Shown one piece after another: positions 25,615-31,511 of a DNA stretch of 35,829 bases. Each line of letters opens with the position of its first letter. Position 1 is the first letter of the stretch. Source of the stretch: Alphaproteobacteria bacterium (GTDB taxonomy: Bacteria > Pseudomonadota > Alphaproteobacteria > Puniceispirillales > Puniceispirillaceae); assembly GCA_011524995.1 (NCBI GenBank), contig WTJA01000058.1, positions 1 through 35,829 on the forward strand, in the 5' to 3' direction. The notes beneath the pieces were generated by a model. It was not told the DNA's origin. It saw only the letters and a program-made list of their open reading frames with translations, and made no database searches. Made by a program: the position numbers and the translations under genes.

Positions 25615-26313
25615 ATGGCTGATGAAGACGATATCATTCTATCTGAACTTGATGATGAAGAGCTAGTTCAGCAGATGCATGACGACCTGTATGATGGCAT
25701 GCAGGACGAAGTGGTAGAAGGTGTGAACATCCTTCTTGAACGTAAATGGACTCCTTACGACGTTCTCACTAAGGCGTTGGTTGAAGGTATGACAATCGTC
25801 GGTATCGACTTCCGCGATGGCATCTTGTTCGTGCCAGAAGTGTTGATGGCAGCGAATGCGATGAAGGCTGGCATGGGTGTTCTTCGTCCGCTATTGGCTG
25901 AAACAGGCGCCCCACGTGTTGGGACAGTTGTTATCGGTACTGTGAAGGGCGATATCCACGACATTGGCAAGAACCTTGTATCAATGATGATGGAAGGCGC
26001 AGGCTTTGACGTGATTGATATCGGGATTAACAATCCCGTTGAGAACTATCTCGAAGCTCTCGAAGAGCATAAGCCAGACATCCTTGGTATGTCAGCGCTT
26101 CTCACAACCACAATGCCTTATATGAAAGTCGTCGTGGATGCGATGATCGAAAAAGGCATCCGCGATGATTACATCGTGCTTGTCGGTGGTGCGCCATTGA
26201 ACGAAGCCTTCGGTGAATCAGTTGGTGCGGACGCTTATTGCCGTGATGCCGCTGTGGCTGTGGAAACAGCTAAAGAGCTCATTGCAAAGAAGTTTGCTGC
26301 ACAAGCCTCTTAG
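25615..26313 (+). CDS. Corrinoid (B12-binding) methyl-carrier protein, MtgC/MtbC-like
   Basis: This 232-residue protein starts at the ATG at 25615, which has AAGGAG six bases upstream; a GTG at 25552 opens the frame but adds a cysteine-rich stretch not typical of the family. Residues 1-95 form the helical cap (B12-binding domain 2), with ILLERKWTPYDVLTKALVEGM. The Rossmann-like domain carries the cobalamin motif D113-x-H115-xx-G118 in KGDIHDIGKN, then GMSALLTTTM and VGGAPLNEAF. In MetH and methyltransferase systems this protein carries a methyl group on cobalt between two enzymes. It heads a cluster with a methyl-THF:corrinoid methyltransferase and a reductive activator. Whether it serves methionine synthesis or methylated-compound breakdown is not set by the sequence. 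Confidence 0.92.
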   Translation: MADEDDIILSELDDEELVQQMHDDLYDGMQDEVVEGVNILLERKWTPYDVLTKALVEGMTIVGIDFRDGILFVPEVLMAANAMKAGMGVLRPLLAETGAPRVGTVVIGTVKGDIHDIGKNLVSMMMEGAGFDVIDIGINNPVENYLEALEEHKPDILGMSALLTTTMPYMKVVVDAMIEKGIRDDYIVLVGGAPLNEAFGESVGADAYCRDAAVAVETAKELIAKKFAAQAS

Positions 26314-26957: not shown

Positions 26958-27269
26958 ATGGCACAGATTACAACTCTTTATTGGCGTGATATTCCAGCGC
27001 AGGTGATTGCTGAAAAAGGCCGGGGTCGCAAGCGTGAGCAAGCCAAAATTGAGCTTCACCGTCGTTTTGCCCTCGCGATTGACGAGGCAGCCATGCGTGG
27101 TGATGCGGCGTCAACCGATGATTATCTGGCTGATTGGCGCAAGGGCGAGCCGGTTGAGTGCTCAGATGAGCTAGAAGAAGAGGCGCAGAAATTAGCCGCC
27201 CAACTAGAAGAAGACTATCCATCAAGCCGTGTAAAGGAGCTGGTGGAGAATGGTGGTTTTGCGGCTTAG
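26958..27269 (+). CDS. Small PF13769-type 'virulence factor' family protein
   Basis: This 103-residue cytoplasmic protein contains the family pattern LYWRDIPAQVIAEKGRGRKREQA-type start (key residues W-R-D-I-P, then G-R-G and K), followed by a RF..AID.AAM helix and DDYLADWR. The 'virulence factor' name comes from an uncharacterised hit and does not describe a function. In this window it is nested between the DUF1638 gene (12 bases upstream) and the methylene-THF reductase-like gene, so a part in one-carbon or corrinoid chemistry is more likely. Its basic N-terminus and acidic C-terminus suggest a binding partner or adaptor. Confidence 0.75.
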   Translation: MAQITTLYWRDIPAQVIAEKGRGRKREQAKIELHRRFALAIDEAAMRGDAASTDDYLADWRKGEPVECSDELEEEAQKLAAQLEEDYPSSRVKELVENGGFAA

Positions 27270-27486: not shown

Positions 27487-28386
27487 ATGGCTGTCACAAT
27501 TGATGATATCGCCAAAGCTGGCGCAGGCTGGTCAATTGAAGTCACACCAGCAGGTGCCGGTAAAGTCGAGAGCTTTGCTGATGTTCTCGCACCTGGCACA
27601 GATGTGAATGTTACCTTCCTGCCTGGGTCTGACCCTGCTGATACCGCCTTGGTGGCAGCGCGGTTACGTGATGAGGGCATGCATCCTATTCCACACATCG
27701 CCGCGCGCTCTGTGACTGACAAGGCGATGCTTGATTCGATGCTGAAAAAGCTGACAGACGAAGCCTCAATCGATGAAGTGCTTATCATTGGCGGCGGCGT
27801 TGATAATCCGGTTGGTGATTTTGACAGCTCTATGCAAATCCTGGAAACCGGCCTTATCCAAGATTACGGCATTCGCAAGATTGGCGTATCTGGTCACCCA
27901 GAAGGCAGCCCGGATATTCCAGATGATGCGCTTGCGGCCGCTCTGGAATGGAAGAATAACTTCGCAGAAAAAGAAGGCCTCGATTTATATATTGAGACAC
28001 AATTCTGTTTTGAAGCTGACCAAGTCTTAGCATGGGAGCGTGATATCCGCGCTGCTGGTAACAAGCTACCTATTCGCATTGGTATTCCTGGTCCTGCCAC
28101 GATCAAAACATTATTCCGCTTTGCGCAAATCTCAGGCATCGGACCATCCATGCGCTTTATCTCTAAGCAAGCGCGTAATGTGGCAAAGCTCATGACAGTG
28201 CAAGCACCAGATAAGTTGTTGGCGGGTTTGGCTGAGGGCATGGCAAATGACAAAGATTGTTTGCTGGCTCATTTCCATTATTACCCATTCGGCGGTTTTG
28301 CCAAAACAGCGGCTTATGCCAAAGCCGTTTCTGATGGTGCCATTACGCTAAAAGCCAAAGGTGGCTTTGACGTGCGCCAAGACTAA
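27487..28386 (+). CDS. Divergent methylenetetrahydrofolate reductase-family protein
   Basis: This 299-residue protein starts at the ATG at 27487, with AAAAGGGG six bases upstream; an in-frame TTG two codons earlier is less likely. It has a MetF-like TIM barrel: E18 in SIEVTPAG aligns with the catalytic Glu of E. coli MetF (E28), H70 is in PIPHIAAR, GHPEGSP lies near residue 136, and TQFCFEAD near 171. The conserved RGD-type segment that carries the folate-stabilising Asp (D120) is replaced by IIGGGVDNP (100-108). It may reduce methylene-THF to methyl-THF for the corrinoid methyltransferase encoded next, or run in reverse. It ends 40 bases before that gene. Confidence 0.85.
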   Translation: MAVTIDDIAKAGAGWSIEVTPAGAGKVESFADVLAPGTDVNVTFLPGSDPADTALVAARLRDEGMHPIPHIAARSVTDKAMLDSMLKKLTDEASIDEVLIIGGGVDNPVGDFDSSMQILETGLIQDYGIRKIGVSGHPEGSPDIPDDALAAALEWKNNFAEKEGLDLYIETQFCFEADQVLAWERDIRAAGNKLPIRIGIPGPATIKTLFRFAQISGIGPSMRFISKQARNVAKLMTVQAPDKLLAGLAEGMANDKDCLLAHFHYYPFGGFAKTAAYAKAVSDGAITLKAKGGFDVRQD

Positions 28387-28426
28387 CACCTGATTGACAC
28401 CATTAAGACGAAGAAAGATTTCACCT

Positions 28427-29329
28427 ATGACAAAGACAGTAATTTCATCTGCAAAGCAGGAAATCACCATTGGTTTCGACCAGCCATTTTGCGTAATTGG
28501 CGAGCGTATTAACCCAACAGGCCGTAAATTATTGGCAGCTGAAATGGCCGCCGGTGATTATAGCCGCGTTGAAGCTGACGCCATTGCTCAGGTCGAAGCC
28601 GGCGCCACAATGCTTGACGTGAATGCTGGTATCCCAATGGCTGATGAGCCGCAAATTTTGGCCGATTCAATCCAGTTGGTGCAATCTGTTGTTGATGTGC
28701 CATTGGCTATTGATAGCTCTATTGTTGAAGCGCTTGAAAAAGGCCTGTCAGTTTATCAGGGTAAAGCGCTTGTGAACTCAGTCACAGGCGAAGAAGAGCG
28801 TCTTGAAGTGGTGCTTCCTTTGGTCAAGAAATATGGTGCTGCTGTTGTTGCGATTTCAAATGACGAAACAGGCATCTCAGAAGATCCAAACGTACGTTAT
28901 GAAGTCGCAAAGAAGATTGTTGAGCGTGCCGAAGATTACGGTATCCCGCGCGAAGATGTGGTTGTTGATCCCTTGATCATGCCTGTTGGCGCGATTAACC
29001 TTGCGGGCCGCTCAGCGCTTGATTTGATCATTCGTTTGCGTGATGAGCTAAAAGTGAACACAACTTGTGGTGCGTCAAACATCTCATTTGGCTTACCAAA
29101 CCGTCATGGTATGAATGCGGCCTTCCTCTCAATGGCCGCTGGTGCCGGTATGACATCAGCCATCATGAACCCGCTTCATTCAGAAGAAATGACAGCGATC
29201 ATGGGCGCCAATGTGATGAATGGTGTTGACCCTGAATGCCGCACATGGATTTCACGCTTCCGTGAGCCAGCAGCAGAGGGCGCAGCAGGTGGTCGTGAGC
29301 GTCGGACAAATCGTCGTCGCCGTGCATAA
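28427..29329 (+). CDS. Methyltetrahydrofolate:corrinoid/cobalamin methyltransferase (MtgA/AcsE-like)
   Basis: The 300-residue product starts at the ATG at 28427; an in-frame TTG at 28394 is less likely. It has the pterin-binding TIM-barrel pattern of MetH, AcsE and MtgA: CVIGERINPTGRK near residues 22-34, ATMLDVNAG, LVNSVTGEE, VDPLIMPVG and NISFGLPNR. It moves a methyl group between methyl-THF and the cobalt of the B12-binding protein. The protein ends in a Gly/Arg-rich tail with ERRTNRRRRA, which is not part of the barrel. The activator encoded next has a similar tail. The gene is followed by a hairpin terminator at 29362-29409. Confidence 0.9.
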   Translation: MTKTVISSAKQEITIGFDQPFCVIGERINPTGRKLLAAEMAAGDYSRVEADAIAQVEAGATMLDVNAGIPMADEPQILADSIQLVQSVVDVPLAIDSSIVEALEKGLSVYQGKALVNSVTGEEERLEVVLPLVKKYGAAVVAISNDETGISEDPNVRYEVAKKIVERAEDYGIPREDVVVDPLIMPVGAINLAGRSALDLIIRLRDELKVNTTCGASNISFGLPNRHGMNAAFLSMAAGAGMTSAIMNPLHSEEMTAIMGANVMNGVDPECRTWISRFREPAAEGAAGGRERRTNRRRRA

Positions 29330-29361
29330 GGTGCGTTTTGTGCCTATATTTAAGTAAAGAA

Positions 29362-29409
29362 AACAGGTAGGTAGGATTGTGGGGCTTGGCCTACCTGTTA
29401 TTTAATTTT
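29362..29409 (+). terminator. Probable intrinsic terminator between the methyltransferase and activator genes
   Basis: A ten-base-pair stem (29362-29371 with 29390-29399) with an 18-base loop is followed by a T-rich run. It lies 32 bases past the methyltransferase stop and ends 35 bases before the activator start. It should reduce transcription of the activator relative to the upstream genes. Confidence 0.75.
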
Positions 29410-29444
29410 TCGCATCATCTATCTGACACGCAATAGGTGCCGTC

Positions 29445-31511
29445 ATGACACAAACAACAGACCAAACATCTTCACAAAACCCTACAGCCAGTGAAGATCT
29501 CAAGATTGTTTTCACACCATCTGGACGCCAAGGCGCGGTCAAAAAGGGAACCAACCTTTTGCAAGCGGCACGTCAATTAGGCGTTGATGTTGATTCTGTT
29601 TGTGGTGGGCGCGCTATGTGTGGACGCTGTCAGGTGAATGTCGGTGATGGCGCGTTTGCCAAACATGGCATTACCTCATCAGCTGAGAATTTGTCAGCCC
29701 CGTCAGCATCTGAAGCGCGCTATGCCGAAAAGCGTGGGCTAGCTGATACCAGACGTCTTGCTTGTCAATGTACGGTGGAAGGCGACCTTGTCATTGACGT
29801 GCCAGCTGAATCACAAGTGCATAACCAGCTTGTGCGTAAGGCCGCTGATAACAGAACCATCGCCCTCAATCCACCGGTGCGCTTGTGTTATATCGAAGTA
29901 CGTGAGCCGGATATGCATGAGCCGTCTGGTGATTTGCGCCGCGTTATCGAAGCGCTTGAAACACAATGGGCTGATCGTGTCACTGGCGCGATTGATTGCG
30001 ACCTCCACGTGCTTCGTGAATTGCAGCCAGCGCTGCGGAAGGGTAAATGGGCCATCACAGTGGCATTACGTGATGGCAACCAGATTATTGCCGTTTGGCC
30101 AGGCTTGAAAGAGCGGATTTTGGGCGCAGCGGTCGATGTTGGCTCGACCACCATGTCAGCGCATATTTGCGATATGAATTCCGGTGAGGTATTGGCCTCA
30201 ACAGGCATTATGAATCCGCAAATTCGCTTTGGCGAAGATTTGATGAGCCGCGTCTCTTATGGCTTGATGAATCCTGGCGGGGCAGAAGAGATGACAAAGG
30301 CTGTGCAAGATGGATTGCAACAGCTTATCCAAGGCGGCGCTGAGCAAGCTGGTATGGCTGCGAATGACGTCATGGAAGTGGTTCTTGTCGGGAACCCTGT
30401 CATGCATCATTTGCTTTTGGGTGTTGACCCGATTGAGTTGGGCGGCGCGCCGTTTGCTTTGGCAGTGGATACCGCGACACAAATGCGTGCTGATGAGATT
30501 AATCTAGCGCTTCATAAAGGAAGCCGCGTCTATGTCTTGCCATGTATTGCTGGCCATGTTGGTGCAGATGCGGCTGGCGTGGTGTTGGCAGAGGCCCCGC
30601 AAACCTCAGATAAAATTAGCCTTCTTGTTGATGTTGGCACGAATGCTGAGATTGTGTTGGGCAATAAAGACCGTATGCTTGCTGCTTCATCACCTACTGG
30701 CCCCGCTTTTGAAGGGGCGCAGATCTCATCTGGTCAACGTGCGGCCCCTGGCGCGATTGAGCGCATTCGGATTGACGCAGAGACCTTAGAGCCGCGCTTT
30801 GCTGTGATTGGGTCTGAGATCTGGTCAGACGAAGAGGGATTTGATGATGCCGTCAAAGATACAGGGATCACAGGGATCTGTGGGTCTGGCATCATTGAGG
30901 TGCTTGGCGAGATGTATCTTGCAGGGATTATCTCAGAAGATGGGGTGATTGATGGCACGCTTGCTGCCAAGACTGACCGCATCATCGAAGATGGTCGTAC
31001 CTTTAGCTACCGCGTCAGTGATACGGTAACCGTCACACAAAATGACATTCGCGCTATCCAGCTTGCCAAAGCGGCGTTACATGCGGGCTTTAAGCTTCTC
31101 ATGGATAAGATGGCAATTGAACGTGTTGATCGTGTGGTTCTGGCTGGAGCGTTCGGCACGCATATTGATCCAAAATATGCGATGGTTCTCGGCATGGTGC
31201 CAGATTGCTTGCTAGACCATGTGGTTGCCGCTGGTAACTCAGCGGGGGCCGGTGCGAGAATGGCGCTGCTTAACATCGAAAAGCGTGCGGAGATTGAGGC
31301 TGTTGTTCGGGATATCGAAAAGATTGAAACCGCAGTTGAACCCTCATTCCAAGATCATTTTGTACGGGCTATGGCTATCCCGCATAAGACTGACCCTTAT
31401 GAGGAATTGACAAAAGCTGTGACTTTGCCATTCCGCTCATTGAAGGATAATGCAGGTGACGCGGCTGAGCCAACACGCTCAGGTCGTCGTCGTCGCCGCC
31501 GCGACGCCTAA
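29445..31511 (+). CDS. Ferredoxin/ASKHA reductive activator of corrinoid proteins (RACo/RamA-like)
   Basis: This 688-residue protein has an N-terminal [2Fe-2S] ferredoxin domain with C53, C59, C62 and C107 in the C-x5-C-x2-C...C pattern. A linker and a long C-terminal ASKHA ATPase domain (DUF4445) follow, with AVDVGSTTMSAHI, LVDVGTNAEI, GICGSGIIEVLGEM and VVLAGAFGTHIDPK. RACo-type proteins use ATP and an electron to turn oxidised Co(II) cobalamin back to Co(I), which corrinoid methyltransferases need. In alphaproteobacteria with split MetH a RamA-like protein of this type has been linked to methionine synthesis. The protein ends with six consecutive arginines then DA. It is convergent with ccmD, with 12 bases between the stops. 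Confidence 0.93.
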   Translation: MTQTTDQTSSQNPTASEDLKIVFTPSGRQGAVKKGTNLLQAARQLGVDVDSVCGGRAMCGRCQVNVGDGAFAKHGITSSAENLSAPSASEARYAEKRGLADTRRLACQCTVEGDLVIDVPAESQVHNQLVRKAADNRTIALNPPVRLCYIEVREPDMHEPSGDLRRVIEALETQWADRVTGAIDCDLHVLRELQPALRKGKWAITVALRDGNQIIAVWPGLKERILGAAVDVGSTTMSAHICDMNSGEVLASTGIMNPQIRFGEDLMSRVSYGLMNPGGAEEMTKAVQDGLQQLIQGGAEQAGMAANDVMEVVLVGNPVMHHLLLGVDPIELGGAPFALAVDTATQMRADEINLALHKGSRVYVLPCIAGHVGADAAGVVLAEAPQTSDKISLLVDVGTNAEIVLGNKDRMLAASSPTGPAFEGAQISSGQRAAPGAIERIRIDAETLEPRFAVIGSEIWSDEEGFDDAVKDTGITGICGSGIIEVLGEMYLAGIISEDGVIDGTLAAKTDRIIEDGRTFSYRVSDTVTVTQNDIRAIQLAKAALHAGFKLLMDKMAIERVDRVVLAGAFGTHIDPKYAMVLGMVPDCLLDHVVAAGNSAGAGARMALLNIEKRAEIEAVVRDIEKIETAVEPSFQDHFVRAMAIPHKTDPYEELTKAVTLPFRSLKDNAGDAAEPTRSGRRRRRRDA

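Follow-up and report, generated by a model that had tools for sequence, protein, structure and literature searches.

Arginine-rich tails are carried almost without exception by the four enzyme types proposed to serve the corrinoid carrier of the MtgBCDE/split methionine synthase system, which is widespread in bacteria, and on the evidence of their sequences we lean, with modest confidence, to the view that they dock electrostatically on that carrier, MtgC, as a charge-based docking code centred on it. The locus studied lies in a genome of an Alphaproteobacteria bacterium of the family Puniceispirillaceae (assembly GCA_011524995.1, contig WTJA01000058.1); the window is the whole stretch of 35,829 nucleotides that was analysed. 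Its components, matched by Pfam and NCBIfam, make it a member of this published system, and the names MtgB to MtgE are taken from PMC12478193. The system itself is known, and the tails add a new feature to it. Two of them, at the C-termini of the methyltransferase MtgD and of the RACo-type activator, had been picked out by a sequence-only reading of the window; those on MtgE and on the MTTB-family protein MtgB are new here.

MtgD, the methyl-tetrahydrofolate:corrinoid methyltransferase, is encoded on the forward strand at 28427..29329. Its best start is the ATG at 28427, which gives 300 residues with the stop ending at 29329 (the listed open reading frame opens at a TTG at 28394). The protein ends in FREPAAEGAAGGRERRTNRRRRA, or in a longer view AAEGAAGGRERRTNRRRRA, and the arginine-rich tail covers residues 282–300 (29270..29326, forward strand). 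The RACo/RamA-like reductive activator of the corrinoid (688 residues, 29445..31511, forward strand) ends in AGDAAEPTRSGRRRRRRDA, in a longer view DAAEPTRSGRRRRRRDA, with a tail at residues 670–688 (31452..31508, forward strand) that includes six consecutive arginines. The two proteins differ in fold, as the sequence-only reading had said: MtgD is a Pterin_bind protein (PF00809), and the activator has the full RACo set of 2Fe-2S, linker, middle and ASKHA domains (PF00111, PF17650, PF17651, PF14574). In an AlphaFold2 model of MtgD built with 44 sequences, the last helix stops at residue 278 and the predicted local distance difference test score (pLDDT) is below 50 at residues 287–300; as modelled, the tail is a disordered extension.

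As a chance background we took 325 kb of the source genome (20 contig starts plus the window), in which a simple rule for non-overlapping open reading frames gave 297 genes. MtgD and the activator are the only two of 285 complete 3’ ends that encode at least five arginines in the last 15 residues. Among the fetched loci, the same count is reached by 93% of 156 MtgD and 96% of 150 RACo proteins (at least 50% identity) versus 3.6% of 1235 other open reading frames, a comparison set that includes spurious frames rich in guanine plus cytosine (GC).

To follow the tails across orthologues, we scanned species genomes with MtgD, using the best 80 of 583 confirmed relatives, and added 61 close genomes (30 loci), 337 Alphaproteobacteria each searched for RACo, MtgD, MTTB and MtgE (part of the matches fetched) and several plasmid records. 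A tail was called on distinct C-termini where at least five arginines fell within 15 consecutive residues among the last 40. By this rule it is present in 153 of 154 MtgD orthologues (at least 59% identity), 144 of 149 RACo orthologues (at least 50%) and 49 of 51 MtgE orthologues (at least 44%), and three MtgD proteins at 54–59% identity, outside the count of 154, are tailed as well. The tailed species span Alpha-, Beta- and Gammaproteobacteria; the question of outgroups in other phyla depends on a small number of loci on plasmids (L211, L212, L237–L240). The sequence-only reading had named missing or varying tails among close relatives as evidence against itself, and we find the tails kept at these frequencies. 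It had also expected them in clusters of this type and not in other contexts. The contrast holds, as the controls below bear out, but the limit to the cluster was drawn too narrowly: both tails are kept where the genes for MtgD and RACo lie on separate contigs or at a distance from each other (L167–L178), and we rejected a cluster-specific trait since these unlinked genes keep them.

Genuine loss is confined to two loci among the MtgD and RACo orthologues. At one (L228) the MtgD passes our rule through core residues only, its real tail being gone, and the RACo has a weak tail of mixed lysine and arginine; at the other (L225, genome G129) the RACo tail is lost. The MtgD of L209, from Paracoccus, has four arginines. 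The remaining RACo cases are a tail followed by a long read-through (L132), a tail in another frame beside an ambiguous base (L073) and a gene that leaves its contig (L068); the frames of L073 and L132 look broken or extended in their assemblies. The MtgE exceptions are one protein without a tail (L349, genome G110) and one with four arginines (L303). Among MtgE proteins fetched later, outside the count of 51, one has no tail (L382, G129), one a weak tail (L416) and one a clear tail (L418).

The pairing of two tailed proteins noticed in the window is real but incomplete, for the C-terminus of MtgE and the N-termini of eight MTTB proteins of the same genome are arginine-rich too. MtgE is here a 343-residue frame and the sole PF02574 match in the genome. 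The eight MTTB proteins (PF06253) all have an arginine-rich stretch at the N-terminus, with 4 to 7 arginines per 15 residues; in the background genes, at least four arginines fall within 15 consecutive residues among the first 35 in 14 of 290 and at least five in 3 of 290. Across distinct MTTB N-terminal extensions, at least four arginines occur in 71 of 73 and at least five in 67 of 73. The two low ones (L254, L248) are artefacts of start choice and do have an arginine-rich start, and six MTTB proteins fetched later are likewise arginine-rich at the N-terminus. None of 68 MTTB C-termini has at least five arginines in the last 15 residues; a short common ending like SMPDAF(T) is frequent among them, for example at L209, L180 and L198. 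The eight genes of the source genome (1.96 Mb) lie on contigs 59, 63, 75, 77, 82, 96 and 102 (L242–L249), and the paralogues range down to about 25% identity with the main MtgB; they likely serve many unassigned methylated-amine substrates.

The other proteins of the cluster seldom carry such ends. The C-terminal five-arginine rule is satisfied by 3 of 83 DUF1638 proteins, 2 of 96 PF13769 proteins and none of 76 MetF2 proteins, and at least five N-terminal arginines are found in 2 of 68, 8 of 76 and 0 of 59, respectively.

Controls from outside the system were also without tails. Twelve Alphaproteobacterial loci (L213–L224) encode a paralogous set of carrier, MtgA-like and RACo-like proteins in which neither enzyme is tailed, and three of these loci sit in genomes that have the tailed system too (G223, G294, G302). 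An MTTB match occurs in 75 of 337 Alphaproteobacteria, and the nine fetched genomes with only the tail-less set fall outside these 75. No tail was found in controls below 45% identity, either MtgD-like (0/15) or RACo-like (0/16). Separate homocysteine-methyltransferase proteins at 30–36% identity (L310–L329), which their adjacent frames suggest are the first pieces of a two-piece MetH, have at most three arginines in the last 15 residues in 20 of 20 cases, and we rejected on this ground the idea that tails mark any separate corrinoid-linked methyltransferase. Full-length MetH from genomes with Mtg genes was tailed in 0 of 11 clear ends (12 loci taken; at L376 the longest frame is not MetH). 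The proposal that a shared tail reflects a common purpose is thus well supported, by conservation among orthologues and by absence outside the system.

Tails average 6.4, 6.7, 6.8 and 6.7 arginines at mean GC contents of 0.36, 0.48, 0.54 and 0.65 (n = 9, 43, 105 and 197 proteins, the lowest bin being thin), and all six arginine codons are used in the tails of MtgD and RACo. The share of arginine among basic residues, R/(R+K), is 0.87–0.95 in the tails, while in the cores of these proteins it moves from 0.45 to 0.70. Together these values point to selection on the residue while its exact order drifts.

We next consider the carrier as the partner. MtgC (232 residues, 25615..26313, forward strand) joins a B12-binding cap (PF02607) to PF02310 and is a homologue of the split MetH/MtgC carrier described in PMC5764234 and PMC12478193. 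The proposed docking site is its acidic N-terminus with the first cap helix, MADEDDIILSELDDEELVQQMHDDLYDG (25615..25698, forward strand). Every one of 84 distinct MtgC orthologue N-termini (at least 70% identity) has the motif DLY[DN]G, versus 0 of 16 more distant carriers. In the 84 orthologues, the first 25 residues have a median net charge of -10 (range -12 to -5), and there is no variation at three leucines, one glutamine and most positions of DLYDG. The AlphaFold2 model of MtgC has four helices ahead of the Rossmann part, the first at residues 14–26, in blocks of mean pLDDT 92–96, with residues 1–4 below 50. Of the acidic partners that the sequence-only reading had suggested, the carrier N-terminus is favoured because it belongs to the proposed common component of the four tailed enzyme types and because of this motif contrast; the alternative, the C-terminus of PF13769, is not obligate, as set out below. 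For a membrane, which that reading had also named, no observation gave support, no test having been aimed at it. Taken as a whole, its interpretation is partly supported. In genome G300, a second region (L228, contig 57) encodes a carrier of about 45% identity that lacks the motif, together with the MtgD (68% identical) that has lost its tail. G300 also has a standard Mtg region; carrier and MtgD of the second region are paired by their closeness, a further divergent carrier is present there, and the case is a single one. There is a precedent in the methanogen complexes described in PMC9842639: the methyltransferase docks on the carrier cap or on an N-terminal extension, the cap domain of MttC being a main contact in MttB–MttC and an extra N-terminal domain of MtaC fitting a groove of MtaB. 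Those interfaces are folded domains, and the main text of that paper does not mention arginine.

In the published division of labour, four enzymes act in turn on MtgC: MtgB loads a methyl group taken from a quaternary amine, MtgD swaps the methyl between MtgC and tetrahydrofolate, MtgE hands it to homocysteine and the RACo activator re-reduces oxidised cobalt. If the tails dock as we propose, the arginine-rich end, N-terminal in MtgB and C-terminal in MtgD, MtgE and RACo, would bind the acidic patch of MtgC loosely and exchangeably, keeping the enzymes concentrated around the carrier and standing in for the covalent linkers of MetH. As in MetH, the cap has to give way during methyl transfer, and tail binding might help lift it. 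We infer the binding to the carrier, its exchangeability and the role in cap opening from the distribution and character of the tails. The wider version of this proposal is finely balanced and we offer it tentatively: a system-wide code, in which generic arginine tails on four families, eight paralogous substrate methyltransferases of a single genome among them, fit the carrier’s acidic N-terminus and cap helix as a socket, act as swappable non-covalent linkers in place of those of MetH, and allow new methyltransferases to join by growing a tail.

Several observations weigh against docking on the carrier. Acidity is frequent among the more distant carriers as well (net charge 0 to -9 over the first 25 residues), which leaves motif, not charge, as the contrast, and the MtgC model is uncertain, its five versions spanning mean pLDDT 59 to 85. 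In G129, the RACo (L225) and the sole MtgE (L382) are tail-less and MtgD and MTTB are tailed, and the carrier has a charge of -6, the same as in the fully tailed G131 (-6); G110 has a tail-less MtgE yet an ordinary acidic carrier (-8). A graded co-variation of carrier charge and tails was accordingly not borne out in the few genomes compared, chiefly through G129. The tails and the motif probably arose once, and their joint distribution may reflect shared ancestry, about one event plus a few losses. Outside the system, 4 of 23 MtgE-like controls pass the five-arginine rule as applied to the last 40 residues, through a stretch that precedes their conserved end. PF13769 proteins have at least four arginines within 15 consecutive residues among the first 35 in 42 of 76 cases, owing to a basic stretch (such as RGRKR) that recurs within the domain, whose match runs from residue 8; basic runs are therefore not wholly confined to the four tailed families, and this stretch, which is not a tail, could bind the same acidic partner. 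Finally, a preference for arginine over lysine would suit binding of RNA or phosphate too.

That last point leads to the likeliest alternative, in which RNA, ribosomes or another cellular polyanion would hold the tails and thereby bring the enzymes of the pathway together. The runs are rich in glycine and arginine, resembling RGG-like RNA-binding tails, and arginine is strongly preferred to lysine in them (R/(R+K) 0.87–0.95). We nevertheless regard this as unlikely: the tails sit on four enzyme types with one proposed protein partner, are rare on DUF1638, PF13769 and MetF2, are missing from the separate homocysteine-methyltransferase and full-length MetH controls, and co-occur with the MtgC motif. 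Quite unlikely, in our view, is a many-body condensate or metabolon of tails and MtgC that has no defined one-to-one docking site. Several polycationic tails facing one acidic carrier terminus, a tail sequence that drifts with its arginine content kept, and the predicted disorder of the MtgD tail would all fit it, but the exact carrier residues conserved in the 84 sequences go beyond what loose charge attraction would need, and we judge the acidic stretch short for a scaffold.

Docking on the small accessory proteins PF13769 or DUF1638 appears very improbable. The C-terminal halves of PF13769 proteins do look acidic in many of the listed loci, and DUF1638 follows the distribution of the activator across Alphaproteobacteria, according to PMC5764234. 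In Terrarubrum flagellatum (L210), PF13769 and RACo also appear to form a single protein, which suggests a direct working link between PF13769 and the activator. On that plasmid, a 760-residue coding sequence annotated ‘virulence factor’ (L210:8692-10974) covers the RACo match and sits at the place expected of PF13769. However, two of the 18 genomes searched, G302 (99% complete) and G294 (97% complete), have both tails and no PF13769 match, and we rejected PF13769 as an obligate partner on this basis; none is annotated in the two Paracoccus clusters examined, in a gene table that is incomplete, and there is no evident reason for MtgB or MtgE to bind either protein. That the tails are functionless, neutral low-complexity drift in GC-rich genomes is scarcely credible: exact tail sequences do differ between lineages, but the count of arginines holds level between 36 and 65% GC (on which ground we rejected GC drift as their source), all six codons are in use, and the tails are found almost throughout four families, seldom in neighbours and in none of the paralogues examined.

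The remaining genes of the cluster, all on the forward strand, lie between those for the carrier and MtgD. They encode a DUF1638 protein (PF07796, 26325..26945) without an arginine tail; a PF13769 ‘Virulence_fact’ protein (26958..27269) with the basic RGRKR stretch inside the domain and no tail outside it; and a MetF2-like methylenetetrahydrofolate reductase (27487..28386), assigned by profile match and without a tail by its C-terminal arginine count. The last matches MTHFR families weakly. Loci of Azoarcus, Sinorhizobium and Paracoccus have an extra protein annotated ‘MTHFR C-terminal domain’, which we did not see in the window’s cluster. The composition agrees with MtgBCDE on each point compared: a stand-alone carrier with PF02607 and PF02310 in a single small protein, a stand-alone pterin-binding MtgD (PF00809, 300 residues), a RamA-like DUF4445 activator (PF14574/PF17650/PF17651) together with DUF1638 (PF07796), and a separate MtgE and an MTTB-family MtgB elsewhere in the genome. 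The systems of Ruegeria pomeroyi and Phaeobacter inhibens have the same carrier, MtgD, RamA-like DUF4445 activator, DUF1638, MetF2, separate MtgE and MTTB/MtgB, according to PMC12478193, PMC5764234 and PMC12366255. The first of these reports that R. pomeroyi requires mtgC and mtgD both for methionine synthesis and for glycine betaine demethylation.

Among the matches listed from open-licence PubMed Central papers, none showed a description of arginine tails in the Mtg system. The main text of PMC12478193 mentions neither arginine, acidic nor tail; arginine and tail go unmentioned in the main text of PMC12366255, and arginine-rich in that of PMC5764234. In MetH, homologous modules (pterin, homocysteine, cap and B12) are linked covalently into a single chain, and the 11 clear cases counted above have no arginine tail. 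RACo–CoFeSP, AcsE/MtgA-like proteins and the MtgB of D. hafniense are homologous activators or methyltransferases that serve a corrinoid protein. The alignments of solved chains (3zyy, 4c1n, 2yci, 1f6y, 4o0q and 9yce) span the cores, with no more than about nine residues left over at the terminus concerned; the RACo structure 3zyy (631 residues) aligns up to residue 648 of the query with nine residues remaining, and the MtgB chain 9yce starts nearly at the core. The chain 2qne stands apart, its first 22 residues not being shown in the alignment. We take the sources of these seven structures to be anaerobes, and D. hafniense in the case of MtgB. The sequence of the MTTB chain 4yyc includes the arginine-rich N-terminus.

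If docking on MtgC is correct, it would explain how a methionine synthase split into separate proteins stays together, and how a single carrier serves many substrate methyltransferases in abundant marine bacteria. An arginine tail together with an acidic carrier motif would then be a sequence signature by which partners of the carrier could be recognised among the many uncharacterised MTTB proteins.

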